Virus record (IMG/VR): IMGVR_UViG_3300013128_001480
Location: 1-22,291 of that record
Length of the DNA stretch: 22,291 nt
Source of the DNA: a virus
Direction: 5' to 3' (one strand)
Of this stretch, positions 1 to 22,278 are shown piece by piece. A program made the translations under genes and the position numbers. Position 1 is the stretch's first letter, and each line of letters opens with the position of its first letter. Below the pieces are notes generated by a model. That model was not told the DNA's origin. It did not search any database and worked only from the letters and a program-made list of their open reading frames with translations.

Positions 1-2150
1 TATGATTGCCAGCTAGCTAGAGTGGTTCGTCCCATGTTCATCACGTCCTTTATCGGCTTCACCGCGTTATTCACAGCGTCACCGGCAATTGCACCCGCGC
101 CACGCGCGTAGTTCATGATCGGGGGCTCCGTCACACGTGCGAAGGCTTGGCCAAAAGAAGCTTGCTTAGGCTCTGTAGGCGGGGTGCCCCCTGCAAGCAG
201 ACCTGTGCCAAAGGCCGCAGCGCTTCCACCCAGGTGTACTGGCAGATAGTTTCGATCTAGTAGCAGATTGTCAGTACCGCGGTTGTGTAGGATTTGTTGC
301 GCCAGTTCAGGACTTAGTTTGCTGGCCAGGTATTCAGCCCCAGCAGATCCTACACCCAGGGCCGAGCCTATGGATGCACCGCGCGTGATGCCCCTGCGGA
401 TAGCGTCATGCCGCTGACCATCCTCAGCGCCAAGTGCGCCACCTATTCCACCTAAGGTGCCGCCGAAAGCCATGCCAGAACCCGCACGAACACCCGCGCG
501 GCGAAGTAGTTCCCGTAGACCTTCAGCGGGTACGCCTGTAGCACTCGTCGCAGCATTAGCCTGCTTCTCCGCCCCACCAGGCGCAACCATAGCGCCCAAT
601 CCGGCAGTACCCAGCTTGGGCTCTGTAGGCGTCGTGTATCCCGCGGCGACGCCCGCTGCGAGAGGCAGCGTCCCGTGCCCGACTCGGTGCACTATGTTTT
701 GCATTTGGTTTTTAGCATTCAACTCTTGCCGTAGCTTAAGCCCAACATCGCCGGCATTTAGCGCTGCGTTCCACAACTTTACTGCTTCTTCTAGGCGGTT
801 TATTTGGGCGTTGTTCTCTGCGATAACGCCTTTACCGTCGGCCGCTACGAAGTCATTGAAACTGAACTCATTGGTAGGTTTGTTGCGCAGGCGCTGTAGT
901 TCTTCCGCAACACGGGCTGCTTCTTGCTCAGAAGCATGTACCGCGGCAGCGTCAATAGCACGCGGGGTTAGGCCGCGCGCTCTGAGTAATCCCGCGTTCA
1001 AAGCGTGCAAGCCGCCACCAAGGGCGGCACCCGCTACGGCGCCGCGGCCTGCGCCCTCCATGCGGTGGCCTTCACCTGCGGCCAGGCCTCCGGCCAGAGC
1101 GCCGCCGACAGCACCCTGTCCTGTGTGTAATAGCGCACTTTCCAGGCCGGAGAGGGCTGTCTTCACAGAAGCTTCTTTGGGACTGGTAGCGGGGGTCGTG
1201 AACCCACCCACGGCACCGCCCGCTACTGGCAGTCCCAGTGCCGCGTCACCCGCGATGTTAGATAGCCGTTGCGCGGCAGCTTCTCTTTCGTAAAGCGTGG
1301 CGCTCAGTGCCCTTAAGTTTTCGATGGCTTCTGGTGACGCATCGTATGTGCTGCCGGGGTGATTATACGTGGTTGCGCGGAGTGCTTCTAAGGCTTCAGG
1401 TGTTAGCCCGCGCGCTGACCGCACTATGCTGTGGCCTCCATGCACCGCGCCGCCCAGCAGCGCGCCCATAGCAGCACCGCGGCTCGCTCCTTCTACGCGG
1501 TTGCCTTCTCCGCTCGCAATCAACCCGGCTAGAGCGCCCGGTAGTGCCCCGCGAGAGGCGCCGTGGAGTGTCTCCAGACCTACGTCTTTAATAGCCGAGC
1601 CAACTCCCGCCGTTTTCGGCTCTGTAGGCGTCGTCATTCCTCCAAGAGCTCCAGCACCTGCGGCAGCAAGCCCCGTTGCACCCACGCCCACCGGCGTAGC
1701 CATGGCGTTGCCCGCACCGTACGCTCGGCGCGCCATCCCGCGTAGATCATCCATGCCCTGGTGGGCGCTCTGCATGGCTCTACGCAGCTGCGGAGCAGTC
1801 GCACCACCCTGGGCCATTGCTTCTAGAGAATGTGCCGCAGCTTCCTGCATACCGGGCTGCACGTGCCCGAACACAGCTGGTGCGGAACGCAGCGCGGCGG
1901 ATCCCGCACCCAGCGTACCGCCCACCGCAGCGCCGGCCGCACCACCGCGTAGAGCACCTTCGAGGCCCTGGCCTTCTGGGGCAGCCATGTAGCCCGCACC
2001 GGCCCCTAGAGCAGCGCCACCGCCAGCACCGATGGCACCGCGAGTGGCTACGCCCTTGGCGAGAGAACCTAGGCCCGGGGCAAGAGTTGCCGCCGCACTC
2101 GCGGACTTAGCGGTTTCGGGGGTAGTAGTCATCGGGTCTACGTTCGACAT
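1..2150 (-). CDS. Modular Gly/Ala-rich virion or membrane-associated protein, 3' end cut by window
   Basis: The reading frame is open from the ATG at 2150 down to base 1 (at least 716 codons), so the C-terminus is off the window or just at its edge; the last two bases are TA. I do not recognise the family. The protein is built of repeated modules: Gly/Ala-rich glycine-zipper segments with a charged core of the type EG-x-R-x-EGA-x2-G (near residues 58, 210, 358 and 572) alternate with a TTPTEPK-type linker (near residues 171, 317, 504 and 654). At DNA level the linker shows as GGCTCTGTAGGCGTCGT at 1618-1634 and again at 619-635, with a shorter copy at 169-180. Glycine zippers usually pack helices in membranes, so an internal virion protein that inserts into the host membrane is one inference. 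No Shine-Dalgarno is visible; TATACT lies 10 nt before the ATG. The coding call is secure, the function is not. Confidence 0.8.
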   Translation of the reverse strand, partial: MSNVDPMTTTPETAKSASAAATLAPGLGSLAKGVATRGAIGAGGGAALGAGAGYMAAPEGQGLEGALRGGAAGAAVGGTLGAGSAALRSAPAVFGHVQPGMQEAAAHSLEAMAQGGATAPQLRRAMQSAHQGMDDLRGMARRAYGAGNAMATPVGVGATGLAAAGAGALGGMTTPTEPKTAGVGSAIKDVGLETLHGASRGALPGALAGLIASGEGNRVEGASRGAAMGALLGGAVHGGHSIVRSARGLTPEALEALRATTYNHPGSTYDASPEAIENLRALSATLYEREAAAQRLSNIAGDAALGLPVAGGAVGGFTTPATSPKEASVKTALSGLESALLHTGQGAVGGALAGGLAAGEGHRMEGAGRGAVAGAALGGGLHALNAGLLRARGLTPRAIDAAAVHASEQEAARVAEELQRLRNKPTNEFSFNDFVAADGKGVIAENNAQINRLEEAVKLWNAALNAGDVGLKLRQELNAKNQMQNIVHRVGHGTLPLAAGVAAGYTTPTEPKLGTAGLGAMVAPGGAEKQANAATSATGVPAEGLRELLRRAGVRAGSGMAFGGTLGGIGGALGAEDGQRHDAIRRGITRGASIGSALGVGSAGAEYLASKLSPELAQQILHNRGTDNLLLDRNYLPVHLGGSAAAFGTGLLAGGTPPTEPKQASFGQAFARVTEPPIMNYARGAGAIAGDAVNNAVKPIKDVMNMGRTTLASWQS

Positions 2151-2344: not shown

Positions 2345-3567
2345 ATGGGTTTCATGAATAGGGCCGCCGGCGCGCTAGCAGCTATGCATGATCTTGGGCT
2401 CGCTAAGTTTGCGCAAGACCCCAGCGACCATTCCTCATATTTACCGGGGCTCTTGCTCTCGGAGGACTTGCTCTTGGAGGTTTAGGCGGGTACAAATTAC
2501 TGCGTCGTCAGCACTTGAGCGATATACCTGTACTGAGACAGCTGCAGCAGCGCGCCGGAGATTTGCCCTTTGAGGTAGCAACCATGCGCCCCGTAGAAGG
2601 GCGCATGAACAACCTGTTGCGGCGCATACTGTATGGCGCGCGAGACATATCCCCTGAGGTCGAGGCGGCAGGGCGGGCAGGCGTAACGTATCAGGCTCCG
2701 GGAACGGTGCTACACCACGGCAGCCCTTGGGACCAGCTTCCTGTAAAAGGCAAGATAGATATCAATGCGCCTAAGGATCATCTAGTCACTGCTCTTGCGG
2801 ATAAGGGTAGTTTCGCAAAGATATTCCAGGATGTAGAGAACACGCCGGGCATGGGTGCGGTAATTCCTAGCACTGTCCCGCTTGCGGACATGAAGGCGGG
2901 CGTGAAGGGTGACTATGAATATATGCGTCGTTATCTAAAAGATACGATGTCCGCAGATGGTTGGATCATAAAGCCCACAGATGAATCTCTAGGCAGCCTG
3001 GAAGGTTTCATAAACCAGAATACCAACCCGCACAGCGCGCAGGTGCAGCAGGCGTGGGACAAACCTAAAAATTATATACTCCAAGAGAAGTTGCCGTTCG
3101 ACGCAGAATACCGCGTGCATACCATGCAGGGAGTTCCGTTTGCGTCCACGCACCGCCGAGCTCCCCCGGGGAAATTCCGCGATGCGTGGAATCGCATTTC
3201 CAAGTCCATGGGTATCGGGGAGGGTGGGTTTGCGCACGTCCCCGTACAGGGAGAAGAGGCGCAGCGGTTGCACGACTTTATCAGCAAAGTCAATGAACCG
3301 CTGCACTTCAACTACGGACAGGCTCCGGTACACCAGGCGTTTGACGTGGGGCGTATGCCCGACGGGTCTTTCAGACTCATAGAGTCTAACCCCACTCCCG
3401 GCACGTTCAACAATCCGGGCATTAGTCGCAAACTACAAGAGGCGGTCACCGGGCGTATGCATCCAGACAAAGCCTTGGCCGGCGCAGCCTTGATAGGCGC
3501 GGGTGGCGGTGCGGCAGGATATGGGGTCGGCACGGGCATAGACGCCGCCACGCAAGAAAAGCGCTAA
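2345..3567 (+). CDS. ATP-grasp-like ligase with terminal Gly-rich hydrophobic segments; frame broken near 2446
   Basis: The long frame (TTG at 2515 to 3567, 350 residues) carries ATP-grasp features. Numbering from that TTG, they are K153 in GWIIKP, Q190-E191 in YILQEKL, EYRVH shortly after, an FDVG aspartate near 276, and E290-S-N292 in FRLIESNP. The D then E-x-N pattern is the metal and ATP site of RimK or tubulin-ligase type enzymes, which join a carboxylate to an amine using ATP. The C-terminus has a Gly-rich hydrophobic stretch (ALAGAALIGAGGGAAGYGVG). Upstream, ATG 2345 or 2354 opens another frame encoding the shared motif GALAAMHDLGLAKFA, which stops at the TAG ending at 2484. One extra base in the GGGG run at 2446-2449 would fuse the two frames into YLPGALALGGLALGGLGG, a glycine zipper. 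I therefore annotate one gene with a frameshift that is programmed, mutational or a sequencing error. The substrate is unknown. TACTAT at 2338-2343 is a possible -10 box. Confidence 0.7.
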
Positions 3568-5601: not shown

Positions 5602-5636
5602 GAAGCGTATGTCCCTCTGGGATGTGCGCTTCTTTT
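5602..5636 (+). terminator. Rho-independent terminator after the XRE gene
   Basis: GAAGCG (5602-5607) pairs with CGCTTC (5627-5632), with an inner TCCC/GGGA stem, and TTTT follows directly. It lies 18 nt after the XRE stop codon and just before the promoter-like TATACT of the next gene. Confidence 0.8.
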
Positions 5637-5640
5637 AGCG

Positions 5641-5646
5641 TATACT
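5641..5646 (+). promoter_or_regulatory. Putative -10 box TATACT, leaderless start
   Basis: TATACT lies between a terminator and the ATG at 5655, with only 8 nt to the start codon and no Shine-Dalgarno. A transcript starting about 7 nt downstream would begin almost at the ATG. Confidence 0.45.
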
Positions 5647-5654
5647 CGGGTGCC

Positions 5655-6209
5655 ATGTTTCATTCGTATTCTACCGGTGCACATGCGGCGTTAGCCGCCT
5701 TGGGATTGACTAAGGTGGGGACTGCTATACCGCGAGGTTCCTCCCTCATGGGGGACATACCTGTGCAGAAGATGTTCTCTGAAGAAGCAGCTAACGTACT
5801 ACGCGCTCGGATGAACTCCTTGGTGGAGGCGGCGCGCCCTGGTACCCTTGCAGACGCTCCGAAAAACCTTCTTTGGGACGTGGCTCACTCGCATAATATC
5901 CCAGGTAGTGTTCCGCACTCGGCACCTACACCGCACGCCGCTTTTACAGACGCAACCACCGCAACAGGCCTAAATACGGCACCACACCCCTCCTTTGAGG
6001 CGCCCACCGCAGTGGGACACCCGCAATCGGCACTCAACGAAGCAACCACCGTAGATCCGATCTCCGGAGTCTATAACCGTGGCGCAGGTGCTGCGCCGAG
6101 TGCGTCTAGGTGGGCGGCAGGATCAGGCGCTTCGGGGGCCGGGCACGGTAGGTTCGATGCAGGTCGCCACGGGGATACTCTTGCGCAGGTCATGCGACGC
6201 GCTCGGTGA
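5655..6209 (+). CDS. Hypothetical protein with shared N-terminal LGLxK motif
   Basis: A 184-residue protein from ATG 5655, chosen over an upstream alternative near 5622 that would lie inside the terminator. Residues 5-21 (YSTGAHAALAALGLTKVG) match the Y-x2-G-x3-A-x3-LGL-x-K-x-A/G motif also found at the N-termini of the proteins starting at 2345, 17081 and 19530. After about residue 70 the sequence becomes low-complexity, rich in Pro, Thr, Ala, His and Gly (repeats of PH-x-A-F/AP and AT-T), and looks disordered. No enzymatic motif is seen. The shared motif suggests it is sorted or packaged with those proteins. The gene is monocistronic in appearance, bounded by the terminator at 5602 and the inverted repeat at 6249. 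Confidence 0.75.
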   Translation: MFHSYSTGAHAALAALGLTKVGTAIPRGSSLMGDIPVQKMFSEEAANVLRARMNSLVEAARPGTLADAPKNLLWDVAHSHNIPGSVPHSAPTPHAAFTDATTATGLNTAPHPSFEAPTAVGHPQSALNEATTVDPISGVYNRGAGAAPSASRWAAGSGASGAGHGRFDAGRHGDTLAQVMRRAR

Positions 6210-9006: not shown

Positions 9007-10464
9007 GTGAGAGAGCTAAAAATATACAACGTGCGAATGGGATTTGCGACTAACTCGTCCTCATCCCATTCGATTATTTTTATCAAAGGCGGCGCCCGTG
9101 ATAACGACGTGTCGGATCACGAGTTCGGATGGAAATATTTTACCGCGGCTAGCTCCGAGACCAAGCGTTGGTGGCTGGCCGCGCAGGCGTATATCGCGTT
9201 GAGTCAATTTACCCCCGGCGAGGTAGCCGCGGATATCCTTCGGGACATGTATGATTTACCTGACATCTCGTTTGAGAAGCACTCATACACCAACGATGGG
9301 TCGGGGCATATTAACGCCAGTGTAGATCATCAGAGCGTACTTACGTTTCCACGTAACTGGCTCGAGAACGATGTTCATCGGCAGTTCTTGGCGCAGTTCA
9401 GTGATTTCATTCTGCAAGACGGCGTAGCCATTCTTGGCGGCAACGACAACGATGATCACATACACCCGCTCTACAACGCAGAGCAGGAGATGCCTACGTC
9501 GTTCTTCGGCGGTGAGGGACGCGGCAACCTCGTTGCGCGCTGGGATTCGCAGTATGCGTTCTGGACGCTGTTCAACCGTCGCTCTGGCGGTAAGATGCGG
9601 TTGGCGTTCGACGACATCACGCTGCAGCGTAAAGTCACTCGTGCGGAGACGCCCGAGCTAGTAGACATCAAGATCACCGACTACTGCACGGCGGGCTGCG
9701 CGTTCTGTTATCAGGACTCCACACCCGAGGGCGTGCACGGCAACACTGCGTACATCAAGCGCGTACTAGACACGCTCTCGGAGTTGCAAGTGTTCGAAGC
9801 TGCGTTGGGCGGTGGCGAGACCACGCAGCACCCGGACTTCGTGGAGATATTGCAGTATGCGCGAGACAAGCACATCGTCCCCAACTTCACGACGAAGCGC
9901 TTGGACTGGCTGCGCAATAAGGCGCTGCGCACGCGTGTACTCGAGCTCTGCGGGGCTTTTGCTTACTCGGCTACGTCCGAGAAGGACGTGAAGAATCTCA
10001 TTCGGCAGCTGGCACAGTCTGATTGCCCTGCGAGCAAAGCAATGGTCCAGTGCGTCATGGGCGTGGTACAGCTCGACGAGCTTGCGCGTATTCTACACAC
10101 CTGCGCCGAGGCGAACATCCGGGTAACACTACTTGGGTACAAAACCGCGGGTCGCGGCAAGTCAGTCATGCCTAGTCTGTACAAAGACTGGTTCACAGTG
10201 GTTGAGCGCGTGGCGGAGAAAGACACGTATCTTCAGATCGGCATCGACACGGCACTGGCCGAGCAGTTCGACGCGCAGCTGAAGGCACGTGGCGTGGACA
10301 CGCGGTTCTATCACGTGCTCGAGGGCGCTTTCTCGGCTTACGTAGATGCTGTGAAGGGGTCTATGGGACCGTCCTCGTACGGCCCCCGTGAGGAGCTGCT
10401 ACCGCTACCGGACCCCCAGGACTTCGTCGCCAAGTATCGCGCGTTCGTGCTGCCGGAGGCTTAG
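9007..10464 (+). CDS. Radical SAM protein with novel N-terminal domain (NSSSSHS motif)
   Basis: A 485-residue protein starting with GTG 9007, supported by AGGAG at 8997-9001. C227, C231 and C234 in DYCTAGCAFCYQD form the CxxxCxxC site for the 4Fe-4S cluster, and GGGE at 268-271 is the SAM-binding motif, so residues about 218-430 are a radical SAM core. These enzymes cleave S-adenosylmethionine to start radical chemistry on peptides, nucleotides or tRNA. Residues 1-215 are not a known accessory domain to me; they begin with MGFATNSSSSHSIIFI, a Ser-rich motif I recall at the start of unrelated hypothetical proteins. No clear SPASM-type Cys cluster is present at the C-terminus. The substrate is unknown. 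The stop codon overlaps the stop of the convergent gene at 10461. Confidence 0.87.
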   Translation: MRELKIYNVRMGFATNSSSSHSIIFIKGGARDNDVSDHEFGWKYFTAASSETKRWWLAAQAYIALSQFTPGEVAADILRDMYDLPDISFEKHSYTNDGSGHINASVDHQSVLTFPRNWLENDVHRQFLAQFSDFILQDGVAILGGNDNDDHIHPLYNAEQEMPTSFFGGEGRGNLVARWDSQYAFWTLFNRRSGGKMRLAFDDITLQRKVTRAETPELVDIKITDYCTAGCAFCYQDSTPEGVHGNTAYIKRVLDTLSELQVFEAALGGGETTQHPDFVEILQYARDKHIVPNFTTKRLDWLRNKALRTRVLELCGAFAYSATSEKDVKNLIRQLAQSDCPASKAMVQCVMGVVQLDELARILHTCAEANIRVTLLGYKTAGRGKSVMPSLYKDWFTVVERVAEKDTYLQIGIDTALAEQFDAQLKARGVDTRFYHVLEGAFSAYVDAVKGSMGPSSYGPREELLPLPDPQDFVAKYRAFVLPEA

Positions 10465-15101: not shown

Positions 15102-16577
15102 TTAGCTGGAAACTCCGGCCTTCGTGCTTTTTACGTTGTTCAGCATGCTTGTGAGCGTAGAGCCTATTGGCGCGGTAGGCGTGAGCGTGGCGCTGCTAGC
15201 TAGAGGATGGGTATGTGTGTCTAGCGCTATGAAGAGGGCTTGCATCAGCTGCTGCAGTTCTTCGAATTTTGCCAGATGACTCACCAGAGTGTCCCCGCCC
15301 AAGATCACCGAGTCCATGAGACTAGTCTTGAGTTTGATCGTTTGACTGTTGGTGGTGATATTACCTGACGCGGTTTCCAGGGTTATGCCGCCGCCCTGAG
15401 TAGATTTCAGCTCTAGGGCTCCGGCGGTGGTAGTCACCTTGTACGCAGAGTTAGGCGAGTCGACAGAGCCTAAGCTCGTGGTGAAGTCACCATCTTCTAC
15501 GGTCAGGGCTAGCGCGGTGTCGCCTTCACCGCCCTGTATGGAGATAGCCATGTTGCGTCCGGAGGCGATGCCTATGTCGCGGGTGGTCTGTATTCGAGCG
15601 TCGTTTCCGGCATTGATCACATGATCCGCTTCAGTCGTAGTTAGCACTGAGCCAAAGACTGAGAGCGTGTCGTCGGACTCTACTGTGACCTCGCGTGCAC
15701 CCGCTATGGTAACAGCGCTGTCTCCGTTGTGTTCTTCGGCGCGTCCGCCGCCTGTACGGTTTCCAGAGCAGATGTTTACGCCGTTCACACCGAATATCTC
15801 GCAGGCCCCAGAAGAGTCTACGTGCAGTCTAAACAGCGTTTGGCCGCTGGGTGTACACAGCTCGAAGTTGAACAAGTCACCGATGGCGCCGATATCTAGC
15901 TTTACGGTCCAGCGTTCCTCGTCAGGACCAGACTCAGTGCGCTGGTCGCTGGCACCACGGAAGCTCAGGTTTACACGGCCATCCGTATTTTTTACGTTTA
16001 GCTCTCCCATGTCCGTAACATTTCGGTAGTTACGGCTAATTACCTCTACGAGGTCATTGAGATTGTGCGTGCGCACCTGCGCCATGGCACTGCCCTTGAT
16101 AAGTGCAGTGCCGCCGGTCAATACTGCGGCCATTGCACCATCAGGGCCGGTCTGTACCCAGTCGCCCGGCGCTACGTCTCTGGGTTCTGCAGCTAGTCGG
16201 TAGTTGCCACGACCCGCGATTACCGTTCTATTTGGGCCTTCTCCGCCGATACCGGTAGCCTCAGTCACAGCAATAGCTTCGGAGCCCGCGTTGTCCGTAG
16301 CGGGCATGTTGAGGATGCCCATTATTACGGGGAATCCGAAGTCGTAGGTTACGCACACCTCGGTGCCCGGTGATAGCGCTGCGACTTCGCCGGGCGTCGC
16401 GCGCATGCGCGGCACCCCAGACAACGTGCGACCGCGCTCCGTACGGATCGTGGAAGTGTAGTTGTCGGATTGGTAGCTAATTACCGTAGCGAATTCGCCG
16501 CGGCGATTACGGTCAGGCATGCCGCCATGGCGGCCGCTACTCCCATCGGGCGTACTCGTCGGATCAGTCCTGTACAT
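15102..16577 (-). CDS. Tail spike / baseplate puncturing protein (OB-fold, beta-helix, HxH)
   Basis: A 491-residue protein. After a polar N-terminus, residues 28-110 look like an OB-fold (GEFATVISYQSDNYTSTIRT, then PGTEVCVTYDFGFPVIMGIL), as in gp5/gpV-type central spike proteins. The C-terminal half is beta-helical in character, with repeated short strands (VTIAGAREVTVES, TTTAGALELKSTQGGGITLE). Near the end, DTHTHPL carries the HxH motif typical of spike tips or baseplate hub proteins, followed by a Thr/Pro-rich stretch. These proteins sit at the tip of the contractile tail and pierce the cell envelope; no lysozyme domain is evident. The ATG at 16577 has TATCGT 6 nt upstream and no Shine-Dalgarno. 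Confidence 0.8.
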   Translation of the reverse strand: MYRTDPTSTPDGSSGRHGGMPDRNRRGEFATVISYQSDNYTSTIRTERGRTLSGVPRMRATPGEVAALSPGTEVCVTYDFGFPVIMGILNMPATDNAGSEAIAVTEATGIGGEGPNRTVIAGRGNYRLAAEPRDVAPGDWVQTGPDGAMAAVLTGGTALIKGSAMAQVRTHNLNDLVEVISRNYRNVTDMGELNVKNTDGRVNLSFRGASDQRTESGPDEERWTVKLDIGAIGDLFNFELCTPSGQTLFRLHVDSSGACEIFGVNGVNICSGNRTGGGRAEEHNGDSAVTIAGAREVTVESDDTLSVFGSVLTTTEADHVINAGNDARIQTTRDIGIASGRNMAISIQGGEGDTALALTVEDGDFTTSLGSVDSPNSAYKVTTTAGALELKSTQGGGITLETASGNITTNSQTIKLKTSLMDSVILGGDTLVSHLAKFEELQQLMQALFIALDTHTHPLASSATLTPTAPIGSTLTSMLNNVKSTKAGVSS

Positions 16578-16601: not shown

Positions 16602-17081
16602 TTACTGGTAATAGCCGTAGGGGTCTTGGTTTGGCTGCGGCGCAGGGCCTGGAGCAAGCCGCCCGGCAGCACCCATGCCTATGGCCGTACCGCCGGCGGT
16701 ACCTGCGTGCTCAATCCACGGCTCCGCAGCGCGTATATGCTCTAGGTTAGTCAGCAGGGTCTCCGTGGAAGGGCGCACTGCTCCCGCGAGCTCAGCTGCG
16801 TCTGCAGCAGCAAGGTGTTTATTTGCTACGCCTTCAGCCCACTGTCTTATGCCGGACCCGGTCCGCCGCCCTAACGCCGCGCCACCAGCGCCTCCAGCAG
16901 CGCCTAGCGCGCTGCCCAGGAGTGCTCCTTCTATACGGTTGCCTTCGCCAGCGGCGAGTGCGCCCGTCGTAGCGCCCAGGCTTGCTCCAAGTAGCCCAGG
17001 CGCCACCAGGCTTGCCTGCTTAAGCAACCCTAAACAGGCGGTTGCGTACAGGCAGCCCGAGCGGTAGGCGCGATGGCGCAT
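16602..17081 (-). CDS. Glycine-zipper protein with shared N-terminal LGLxK motif
   Basis: A 159-residue protein; ATG 17081 lies 2 nt after the stop of the tail tube candidate, so translation is probably coupled. Residues 6-24 (YRSGCLYATACLGLLKQA) match the Y-x2-G-x3-A-x3-LGL-x-K-x-A motif. Residues 28-75 are a glycine zipper with the core GEGNRIEGALLGSALGAAGG, nearly the same as modules in the large protein at 1-2150; even the DNA is alike (16927-16947 compared with 1490-1510). A second Gly/Ala segment (HAGTAGGTAIGMGAAG) precedes a Pro/Gln/Tyr-rich tail. It is likely membrane-active or an internal virion component, by analogy with glycine-zipper proteins. No enzyme motif is seen. Confidence 0.7.
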   Translation of the reverse strand: MRHRAYRSGCLYATACLGLLKQASLVAPGLLGASLGATTGALAAGEGNRIEGALLGSALGAAGGAGGAALGRRTGSGIRQWAEGVANKHLAAADAAELAGAVRPSTETLLTNLEHIRAAEPWIEHAGTAGGTAIGMGAAGRLAPGPAPQPNQDPYGYYQ

Positions 17082-17083
17082 CG

Positions 17084-17836
17084 TCACACCGTGGCGCTTA
17101 CGGTGCTGCTGTCGATCTTCTCTGCGGCGACGTCGGTGTCGGTCGCGTCGATGAAGCCGATGACCTGATCTAGCGAAGCGCGCGACACGTTGGTTAGTAC
17201 CTGGGTGTCTTCGCCGAAGGGTAGGAGGCGATCGAATACGAAGCCCACCTGCTCCATGATCTGGTTGCCGCCTGCTTGGTAGCCGATCGTGTAGTTGGTC
17301 AGCATGGTGAGTTCGGCGTAGAACCCGCCCACGAAGTCGTGAGCCTTGGTTCGGAACACCGAGCCTAGACCGAAGGGGATGAGGTACAGCTCGGAGTCCA
17401 GATTGATGTAGAACTTGGACTGGGCGCTGCGCGCTGCCGGATCGTCCAGCAGATTGACGGGCAGGTTGGCTGCGCGAGCGCAGTGGTAGAGCACGCGGAG
17501 TAGATTACGTCCGTTCACGAACAGGCGCTGCATGTTGCCCTGTCCTTGCGCCTTACCGCTCACGAAGAAAGAGCGGCCTGAACCGATGGCCATCATAGGC
17601 TGGGTGGGCTTGGACTGGCTTAGGCTGAAGTTCTGCAGCATGCCAATCGCTAGCAGCGACTGGATGCTCTGGCCGTTGCTGCGCGCAACGTCTACGGTGT
17701 CTAGACGTGCCGGACCAGCAAGGACAAGCGTGTCGTCAGGGTGCGCGGACGTGTACGCCGCGTTATCCATGACGCGCTCGACATACTGATCCTGGAAGCG
17801 CCAGGATGCTAGATTTCGTGTAATACCGAGGGGCAT
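17084..17836 (-). CDS. Probable tail tube protein
   Basis: A 250-residue protein with a good ribosome binding site (AGGAG, 5 nt before ATG 17836). The central segment IGMLQNFSLSQSKPTQPMMA, then IGSGRSFFVSGKAQGQGNMQ, resembles tail tube or baseplate-tube proteins of contractile phages, in which an IG-x-V-x-SF strand is followed by an IGS and a G-rich turn; I recall this pattern but could not test it. The rest is mixed alpha/beta without transmembrane segments. Its place two genes after the sheath, its size and its beta-rich middle support a tube role. A baseplate or initiator protein is the alternative. Confidence 0.55.
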   Translation of the reverse strand: MPLGITRNLASWRFQDQYVERVMDNAAYTSAHPDDTLVLAGPARLDTVDVARSNGQSIQSLLAIGMLQNFSLSQSKPTQPMMAIGSGRSFFVSGKAQGQGNMQRLFVNGRNLLRVLYHCARAANLPVNLLDDPAARSAQSKFYINLDSELYLIPFGLGSVFRTKAHDFVGGFYAELTMLTNYTIGYQAGGNQIMEQVGFVFDRLLPFGEDTQVLTNVSRASLDQVIGFIDATDTDVAAEKIDSSTVSATV

Positions 17837-17871: not shown

Positions 17872-19530
<1,659 letters not shown>

Positions 19531-19542
19531 GGACTTACGTGA

Positions 19543-22278
19543 TCAGCCTACCAGGTGCAGGCCGATTACGTTAAGGGGCTTGGGCAGGTCCACTTCCATG
19601 AAGACTTCGACACGGTCTGCGGAAGCGGTCGACACCTCTAGCGAGGTGATCGAGGCGTCGTTGATGGGCGCGCCGATTCGCGCTACTCGGCGCAGCTTGA
19701 GGTTCTCGGTGCCCGTGTTGAGGGCCTGGCGGATGAACCCGAGCGTGTCGTTGTTGATGTTCCAGATGCCGAGGAACGGGTCGAGGACGCTCACGTAGAA
19801 CACTGACACGAAGTCGAAGTTCTTCACGATGGAGTACTCGCCCGACTCGAGCGTCGCGGGGTCTGTGGTCAGCTGGTGGATGCTGTACGGAATGGACGTC
19901 GGCGCCTGCTGCACGAAGACGTACCAACCACCATCGGACAGGTCCGTGAGCTGCTGCTCGCTGAAGTAGTCGCTCGAGTGTGTGAGACGGCTGATGCCGA
20001 CGACACCCAGGCGGCTGAAGCCCTGGTGGCTGGGGTAGCCCGCGGTCATGCCGCCCACACCGGCAGCGGCGTAGTAGCCCGGCTGCGGGTCTGCAGCCGC
20101 CGCAGTGCCGTCGGGGTTCTTGGGCTTGCTGTTGTCTACGAGACCCGAAACCGTAAGCACGTCGGGCCATGCGAGCAGGGCGCGGCGCGAGTTGAGGCTC
20201 TGCGACTCGGCGACCAGCTGTGTCACCTGCTGGGTCTTGGTCAGATCGCGGATTACGCGGTAGCGGATAGTGAACGGTGTAACCAGCGTGCCGGTCCCGA
20301 GACGATTATCGAAATGGGGCAGCTCTGCTTCCACGACGGAGCTGTTGTTTACGTACAGCCCCGATACGATGTTCGTAATCTCGAGACGCTGTTCGCTGAC
20401 GACGGCGTTGACAGTGAACCGCTTATTACCCGAGGGCGCGAAGACACCATTCGGGTTCTGCGGGATCTCGAGGATGTCTCCGGGCAGAACGCCATCGGTG
20501 AGGAACGTCGCCGCCGCGTCGTAGAAGCGGATGAACACCGTGTCGAGCGCGGTGGTAGACGCCAGGCCGTCCACACCTGCCACCGTACCAGATACGGCAG
20601 TGGCACCGACCGCAACCGGAAACAGCGCCGGCGTAAACGCGAGTGCCACCAGGTTGATGGACCCGCTGAACGGGATCGTGACGCCAGCGCCCGTGTTAAG
20701 GGCAGAGGCAACCTGCGCAGCAGTGATGGACGCGGCGGCCCAGTCACCGTTGATGATCGTAGAGACGTTCGCTACTTCTACGATGCTGTTGATGCCACCG
20801 GGTACGGTGGCGTCCTGGAACAGCTGGATAGTGCGGGCACCCGCAGCGACACCCGCTACGCGGCTGAAATACCGCACGCCGGTGTTGTCGTAGTGGGCTC
20901 GGTTATCAACCAGCGGGATGATCGTAGCGCCGGTGCTCGGACGTACGACCTGGTAGTTGATGCCTTCGGCAACACCTACTGTCGCAGGTAGCGCCTGATC
21001 AAGCTCAATCTGAGTGTTGCTGTTGATGTGCGCAATCGTGTAGGTGCCGTCTAGCGGCGCCACGTTGGGGCTCGCCGAAAGAATAAGCTGGTCCCCAGGG
21101 CGGAGATTGCTGGTGAGGGCCGTGAACGCCGGGATGTTGATCGTACGGATGCCCGGAGGCACCGCGCCAGCGAGCGCCTCCGTATTGCCCGTCACGACCT
21201 CGTCGCTGATATCCTCGGTGACCGGCAGCGTCCCGTTGCCGATAACGACACGGAATTTCTGGGGCACACCCGTAGACAGCGACACCAGCGGATCTGCGAG
21301 ACTCTCGTTGTCGGCCTTGAAGGCAGCAACGATGTTGAGATCGGGGTTCAGGGGGACGATCGCGTAGATGTCCTCGAGCGGCGAGATGACGTCCTTGGCC
21401 TTGTTGTATCCAACGAGGTCGTCCGTATCTACGCCGAAGAACTGGATGGGCGCCTGACCCGAGTTCTGCAAGGCTACGAAGCAGCCCGCAGCGAGCGGGT
21501 TACGCGCGTCGATCTTGCCGATCTTCGTGAGGATCTCTTGCGTGGAGACGACGGTGTCCAGGGTCTGCAGGTCCGTGCGGTATGCGCGGTAACCCACGTA
21601 GACTTCGGCGTAGGTCACGATACGGGGCGTGCCGCCAACCGGGACCGTAACGCCGCCAAGGATCTGTATCTGGTTGGACGTACGGAACGTCTGTGTAGAG
21701 ACGAACGTGTCGTCGATCTCTGTATTAGAGAGCGCGCGCTCAACACGGTAGCGGAGTGTTCCCGCAACTGCCGCGGTGAAATTCGACGTGACTCGCAGTA
21801 CCGTCTGGCTATCGACGCCGCTGATGGTCAGCTTGAGATTGGGCGTGAGCGGGCCGGACGGGTTATCGACGATCAGGATATCACCGGCCTGCACGCCCGC
21901 CGTCTGGAAGGTCGCGCCAGCGGACGTGAAGGTGTTCTCGTTGGGAGCGGTGACCACGGTGGTACCGTCCGTACCTACCGCGAGCCGTACACGGAACTTG
22001 TCGAAGAAGACCCGCACCGAGGCCGGGTCTACCCAACCACCTGCGACGATTCCAGGCGGCGCTGCTAGCGTGATAGCCGGTACGAATGCCACCGGGGGCG
22101 TGTACGGGTTATCGGCGTTGAGCGTGCCGTAGTTAGACACCTGGATATTCGCGCGGTCGTCCGGGAAATCTAGTACCTGATAGGCCGGTCCTAAGATCAG
22201 GCAGTTGAGGTCGGGCGTTACCGGAACCACCGTGGGGGTGGCGGTTTCCTGGAATAGAAGTACTAACGGCCTGGTCAT
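19543..22278 (-). CDS. Contractile tail sheath protein
   Basis: A 911-residue protein, about 200-400 residues longer than many sheath proteins. The C-terminal 300 residues have the typical sheath layout: RRALLAWPDVLTVSGLVDNS, PGYYAAAGVGGMTAGYPSHQ, VVGISRLTHSSDYFSEQQLT, a strand-rich GGWYVFVQQ, TTDPATLESGEYSIVKNFDF, then DRVEVFMEVDLPKPLNVIGL at the end. These build the contractile core that drives the tube into the cell. The N-terminal two-thirds holds three copies of a beta domain (PGD/AGD-x-L-x-I ... Y-x-V-x-R), near residues 115-190, 390-460 and 600-690, likely surface decorations. GGAG lies about 9 nt before ATG 22278 at the window edge. It is the first visible gene of the structural run that continues down to 15102. 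Confidence 0.93.
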   Translation of the reverse strand: MTRPLVLLFQETATPTVVPVTPDLNCLILGPAYQVLDFPDDRANIQVSNYGTLNADNPYTPPVAFVPAITLAAPPGIVAGGWVDPASVRVFFDKFRVRLAVGTDGTTVVTAPNENTFTSAGATFQTAGVQAGDILIVDNPSGPLTPNLKLTISGVDSQTVLRVTSNFTAAVAGTLRYRVERALSNTEIDDTFVSTQTFRTSNQIQILGGVTVPVGGTPRIVTYAEVYVGYRAYRTDLQTLDTVVSTQEILTKIGKIDARNPLAAGCFVALQNSGQAPIQFFGVDTDDLVGYNKAKDVISPLEDIYAIVPLNPDLNIVAAFKADNESLADPLVSLSTGVPQKFRVVIGNGTLPVTEDISDEVVTGNTEALAGAVPPGIRTINIPAFTALTSNLRPGDQLILSASPNVAPLDGTYTIAHINSNTQIELDQALPATVGVAEGINYQVVRPSTGATIIPLVDNRAHYDNTGVRYFSRVAGVAAGARTIQLFQDATVPGGINSIVEVANVSTIINGDWAAASITAAQVASALNTGAGVTIPFSGSINLVALAFTPALFPVAVGATAVSGTVAGVDGLASTTALDTVFIRFYDAAATFLTDGVLPGDILEIPQNPNGVFAPSGNKRFTVNAVVSEQRLEITNIVSGLYVNNSSVVEAELPHFDNRLGTGTLVTPFTIRYRVIRDLTKTQQVTQLVAESQSLNSRRALLAWPDVLTVSGLVDNSKPKNPDGTAAAADPQPGYYAAAGVGGMTAGYPSHQGFSRLGVVGISRLTHSSDYFSEQQLTDLSDGGWYVFVQQAPTSIPYSIHQLTTDPATLESGEYSIVKNFDFVSVFYVSVLDPFLGIWNINNDTLGFIRQALNTGTENLKLRRVARIGAPINDASITSLEVSTASADRVEVFMEVDLPKPLNVIGLHLVG

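Follow-up and report, generated by a model that had tools for sequence, protein, structure and literature searches.

In phage T4, the prohead core and internal proteins (gp22, gp67, gp68, the IPs and Alt) are cut by the protease gp21 at L/I-X-E, and capsid-targeting sequences are part of this system. To our knowledge, the known head proteases of the T4, phiKZ and SPN3US type cut after Glu. Ejection proteins of SPN3US and phiKZ are reported to be cut by gp245/gp175 at A-X-E or S/A-X-E (PMC10052503, PMC9026906); in mature gp47, an ejection protein of SPN3US, a transmembrane segment is predicted at the N-terminus (PMC5694885). The T6SS effector Tde1 requires its glycine zippers to permeabilize and cross the target inner membrane (PMC10240207).

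The stretch of DNA analyzed here (the window) is 22.3 kb of viral DNA from a large contractile-tailed phage that is represented solely by metagenomic sequence. A single open frame on its minus strand (3-2150, ATG at 2150) encodes a tandem glycine-zipper protein of at least 716 residues; no stop was found before the window start, so the C-terminus is missing at the contig end. The product probably joins several ejected, membrane-active hairpins in one polyprotein, and we give an even chance to this polyprotein being internal to the phage head, as part of the prohead core or of the ejected set.

Four zipper modules were delimited on the minus strand, at residues 27-100 (module 1, 1851-2072), 183-256 (module 2, 1383-1604), 329-401 (module 3, 948-1166) and 545-619 (module 4, 294-518), using a module HMM whose seeds include these same modules, so that the independent evidence for the repeat comes from a shuffle test and from the relatives. 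In pairwise comparisons shuffle-controlled for composition, the z-scores were 12.3 for modules 1 and 2, 15.7 for modules 2 and 3, 8.8 for modules 1 and 3 and 8.1 for modules 1 and 4; the pairs 2/4 (3.5) and 3/4 (2.5) were weak. The pattern GxxxGxxxG occurs 17 times in the protein versus 3.4 expected. The tandem repeat of modules and linkers described in an earlier note on this DNA is real. The note's count of at least four EG-x-R-x-EGA units stands for modules as defined by the HMM, whereas the exact motif is strict in two copies only (EGNRVEGA and EGHRMEGA), being loose in module 1 (EGQGLEGA) and diverged in the turn of module 4 (EDGQRHDA).

AlphaFold predicted module 2 as a long helical hairpin with its turn at GEGNR. 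The prediction for one module, made with eight relatives or paralogues, had helices at 2-33 and 39-68 with pLDDT mostly 70-90, while a third helix and the linker were poorly modelled. Hydrophobicity of the modules is moderate (Kyte-Doolittle maximum about 1.3 in a 19-residue window). Their best Pfam matches were the glycine-zipper domains PF13441, PF13488, PF05433 and PF13436 (E about 1e-3 to 1e-2), with scores under the gathering cut-off (17.5 bits vs 28.9 for PF13441, 16.4 vs 27 for PF13436). GxxxG helix pairs are common to these domains and our modules; the latter differ in their own turn signature, E-(G/D)-x-R-x-x-G, and in their tandem arrangement. Foldseek of the module against the PDB gave no significant match, the best being a chain of the TIM23 complex (E = 0.6). 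As judged from sequence and model, the modules are glycine zippers in the structural sense, with repeated GxxxG on paired helices, and the helical-hairpin model together with analogy suggests that they may be membrane-active. The analogy is with Tde1, whose glycine-zipper helices likewise reach their target by way of a contractile injection machine (delivery being predicted in our case); in Tde1 a single zipper is fused to a DNase, and the likeness drawn here is one of helix type.

The four T(T/P)P-x-PK linkers noted before are present, and a fifth that had been overlooked, the N-terminal motif TTPETAK-SA↓S (residues 9-17; 2100-2126, minus strand; ↓, putative cut), raises the count to five. 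The N-terminal piece that it ends is short. The remaining junctions, all on the minus strand, are TTPTEPK-TA↓G (junction 1, residues 173-181; 1608-1634), TTPATSPK-EA↓SVKTA↓L with two K-x-A sites (junction 2, residues 318-332; 1155-1199), TTPTEPK-LG↓T...GGAEK-QA↓N (junction 3, residues 506-531; 558-635) and TPPTEPK-QA↓S (junction 4, residues 656-664; 159-185). In junction 3 the linker reads K-L-G and a K-x-A (AEKQAN) lies 17 residues downstream. Junction 1 holds a 17-nt exact repeat, correctly reported earlier as 619-635 and 1618-1634; the only other repeated 17-mer in the window lies in a CTG run at 18666-18709, which codes for a polyglutamine stretch in the gene between sheath and tube (17872-19530). 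On contig L003 that protein has 549 residues as against 552 here, three fewer, a difference that may lie in the CTG run.

The protein has six K-x-A tripeptides, every one of them at a module junction, and ten further lysines, all outside K-x-A (Fisher p = 6e-4, with sites taken as independent and the test framed after the sequence had been seen). Scored with a matrix of head-protein sites (head mean 1.5, control -1.2), four of the seven sites reached 0.9-1.5 and three fell below zero (K179, -0.5; K512, -2.8; K662, -1.5), because Pro precedes K in these linkers and K512 is also in K-L-G; as a set, the scores are intermediate between the head and control distributions. The earlier proposal of linker cleavage by a phage protease is supported in part: it gained independent support, the informative element being K-x-A(-S) and not TEPK. 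If T4, phiKZ and SPN3US are taken as the model, cleavage would come after A, two residues later than the cut directly after TEPK that had been suggested. TEPK itself is not conserved: in a two-module homologue in the related genome G011 the junction reads KKESSVKTALS, as against PKEASVKTALS in the 3-2150 protein, without TEPK. TEPK was dropped as a recognition element because it is not conserved in the relatives, whereas K-x-A is.

Pfam and PHROGs profile searches with the whole frame gave no matches, a search for related loci with the 716-residue protein found no direct relative, and tblastn against INPHARED up to E = 10 returned nothing. Searched with this protein, the related genomes gave matches at the module level only and no four-module orthologue, and a further alignment scan gave no matches; the alignment of the modules contained no segment of sufficient conservation for such a scan. 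Of 21 related records, 14 contain the module, with between 1 and 8 matches per record. Single-module genes lie between the sheath and tube genes and, in closer relatives, also between tube and spike. Both kinds occur on the minus strand of the window, at 17872-19530 (between sheath and tube genes) and at 16602-17087 (stand-alone, between tube and spike genes), where the earlier note had suspected related zippers; the module HMM confirmed both. The sheath-like (19543-22278), tube-like (17084-17836) and spike-like (15102-16577) proteins were named from gene order, size and conservation, none from family libraries; the sheath-like protein has relatives in, among others, Salmonella phage Arash and three Vibrio phages. 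In G007 and similar phages, zipper proteins with one, two or three modules are encoded in tandem, and the sequence of the 3-2150 protein suggests that units of this kind have been fused. In G011 a neighboring single-module protein ends ...ALGGLAGGGAAGLTTEKKSP, resembling ...AGALGGMTTPTEPK.

With the sheath, capsid and tube proteins as queries we gathered a clade that comprises 178 IMG/VR contigs by capsid protein, several of them of 150-198 kb; gene calls in the relatives were mechanical and ortholog groups were reciprocal best hits. Hosts were sought through metagenome-assembled genomes, and the three contigs matched belonged to unrelated taxa and were probably binned viral contigs, so no host was assigned. 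A capsid-protein profile found no matches among PDB sequences. A protein with a patatin-like signature (GGSRG...GTS(T/V)GAL) is encoded directly before the tail sheath in some relatives (L005:9031-9912, G002 42208-43095, and the G005 and G006 orthologues) and is missing from the overlapping contig L003.

In an unbiased scan, all 400 residue pairs at gaps 0-3 were counted in head-region proteins of G002, Arash and Vibrio phage D181. K-x-A was the top pair in each: 76 vs 27.9 expected in G002 (z 10.9), 44 vs 19.9 in Arash (z 6.1) and 50 vs 20.7 in D181 (z 6.8). Replication and tail proteins of G002 had other pairs at the top. Across about 180 related IMG/VR contigs and two distant lineages of cultured phages, K-x-A leads the residue pairs by a wide margin in proteins whose genes lie between those of the head protease and the major capsid protein. 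The ortholog groups with the highest excess fall mainly in the stretch that starts upstream of the protease and stops just short of the capsid gene, with the head protease gene itself among the most enriched. The logo from 587 sites was L-(E/V)-K-(T/I/V)-A↓S, with L at P5 and E or V at P4; Ser at P1' was enriched 3.1-fold and Pro at P4 was depleted. All 61 capsid proteins examined had K-E-A or K-Q-A ahead of the N-arm, including 17 outside the search pattern (KVR and similar variants), all of which read KEA in the N-terminal sequence. The capsid proteins of Arash and D181 have VKEA and TKEA, respectively, each with G as the next residue. The identical scan of T4 core proteins returned I-x-E and L-x-E as the top two pairs, which is the known specificity of gp21; in SPN3US, A-x-E ranked fifth. 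I-x-E came second in the G002 head proteins (z 4.4), and in both Arash and D181 the first place went to a pair other than x-x-E.

Taken together, the clade-wide enrichment, the logo, the capsid boundary and the T4 control lead us to read K-x-A as the putative prohead-protease signature of the clade, with Ala at P1 in place of the Glu of T4, phiKZ and SPN3US. Site geometry and the Ser preference point to a cut after Ala. A cut after Lys is possible, as in HK97, whose head protease cuts after Lys. A literature search found no paper on a K-X-A prohead protease. The 3-2150 protein would be a substrate by this measure, as its six K-x-A are the tripeptide enriched in head proteins of the clade.

The protease gene of the clade matches the PHROG 'head maturation protease' (E 5e-9) and encodes invariant HH and SMG motifs; in Arash the head protease is gp222. 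Foldseek with a low-confidence model of the protease gave weak matches only, T4 gp21 and the HSV-1 protease among them (E about 0.2-0.3). In L037:6009-6848 and its orthologues the protease has a Cys/His-rich, zinc-finger-like insert (DVCxxCGNxAxTRxxYCDHLK). As in T4, core proteins of the clade are dense in a P3-x-P1 tripeptide with an equal statistical signature in the pair scan, short N-terminal tags end in a site, and the protease gene is near the capsid gene. The clade differs in its putative P3 Lys and P1 Ala versus P1 Glu, and the 3-2150 protein is a tandem zipper chain. With SPN3US and phiKZ, as far as described in the available text of PMC10052503 and PMC9026906, the clade shares large phage size, many processed head proteins (predicted here) and Ser at P1', and the geometry of its logo matches the SPN3US A-X-E↓S (PMC10052503). 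On the other hand, P1 is Glu there and apparently Ala here, and a zipper polyprotein is not among the proteins presented in that text.

Many proteins of the clade share an N-terminal tag, Y-x-x-G-x-x-x-A-L-x-x-L-G-(L/F/I)-x-K-x-A. LG(L/F/I)...K-x-A was found 28 times in the first 45 residues, versus 5.1 in shuffled termini (maximum 13 in 200 shuffles). The tag resembles the T4 capsid-targeting sequence in layout and is unrelated to it in sequence. Its carriers include zipper proteins, among them the G011 two-module homologue (LGLEKTA), and an SNF2-like helicase (G007 26591-28090). In the window both other zipper proteins carry it at their N-terminus, as YRSGCLYATACLGLLKQA↓S in the 16602-17087 protein (17013-17066, minus strand) and YAEGRDLALTGLGLEKVA↓F in the 17872-19530 protein (19450-19503, minus strand), and positional counterparts of the latter in the relatives have K-x-A near the N-terminus. 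Variants occur in ORF 5622-6209 and in the 5' part of an ATP-grasp-like frame at about 2354. The consensus tag is lacking at the N-terminus of the 3-2150 protein, and the tag was absent from the Arash and D181 regions examined. It stands at the extreme C-terminus in G006 75884-76375 and L208 (VYRHGRFQALANLGL) and in L198 (AWWMGKAAALQHFGL).

At 2354-3567 (plus strand) the tagged N-terminus MNRAAGALAAMHDLGLAKFAQ is followed in another frame by an ATP-grasp-like protein (R2K_3, weak), and this seems to be one tagged gene split by a frameshift, real or from assembly. L195:685-1887 encodes a fusion of three parts, namely a LigD phosphoesterase-like domain, an internal K-D-A tag (GQTHALRSLGLLEKDA) and a module of the glycine-zipper type, as if two cargoes shared one precursor. 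A radical SAM protein (Pfam E 1.4e-8) with an N-terminal GFATNSSSSHS stretch is also encoded in the window at 9007-10464 (plus strand).

We propose that the head maturation protease would cut the 3-2150 protein after K-x-A during head maturation, releasing individual hairpin units of about 150 residues each. By analogy, the units would be ejected with the DNA and insert as glycine-zipper hairpins into the host inner membrane, where they might help DNA and co-packaged proteins to cross. Injected zipper hairpins that aid passage of DNA or protein through the inner membrane would be the simplest functional reading.

From the sequence we favor cleavage into module-size units, which in our estimate could equally prove right or wrong, over a chain that stays whole. 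The whole chain, delivered or assembled in one piece, in which flexible Thr/Pro linkers would tether membrane hairpins in a tail-associated or tape-measure-like channel protein, is a possible though less probable arrangement. Pro-rich linkers are typical of flexible tethers, the Pro that precedes several linker sites is depleted at P4 among head-protein sites, and single-module relatives are encoded between the genes for sheath, tube and spike, a setting in which no prohead protease is known to work. It accounts poorly for the confinement of K-x-A to junctions, for relatives that encode the modules as separate proteins and for the similar K-x-A junction of G011 without a TEPK linker. It is rather unlikely that K-x-A instead serves docking or packaging, as a motif to which scaffold or capsid binds, with the uncut protein packaged via several copies of it: multivalent docking would fit the presence of several copies in each core protein, and at least one protein (G006 75884-76375) has the tag at its C-terminus, but the logo is protease-like with its Ser preference directly after A, K-(E/Q)-A stands just before the capsid-protein N-arm, and the control scan recovered T4's true cleavage motif. 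A low-complexity Ala/Gly expansion that lacks modular function and has junction K-x-A by chance, in keeping with the composition (Ala 21%, Gly 17%) and the lack of relatives in protein-level searches of viral and phage collections, is very improbable given the composition-controlled scores of modules 1-3 (z 8.8-15.7), the spread of the module family among related records and the junction placement.

Our preferred reading, cleavage at K-x-A, belongs to a wider proposal for an essentially undescribed, widespread clade of large myophages in which a protease of new specificity (L-E/V-K-x-A↓S) and a portable tag, terminal and about 20 residues long, would load and trim many injected proteins, the 3-2150 polyprotein giving rise to several membrane hairpins; we hold this wider proposal to be evenly poised between right and wrong. 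Its core claim can be put to the test in the two lineages that have been cultured, those of Arash and the Vibrio D phages. If it is true, motif and tag would list the packaged and injected proteins of uncultured phages from sequence alone, including zipper hairpins, the SNF2-like helicase, the LigD phosphoesterase-like fusion and possibly the ATP-grasp protein. It would also mean that T4-type head proteases can switch their P1 requirement yet keep the P3-x-P1 logic, and tandem zipper polyproteins would offer a novel means of supplying a membrane-crossing device in many copies.
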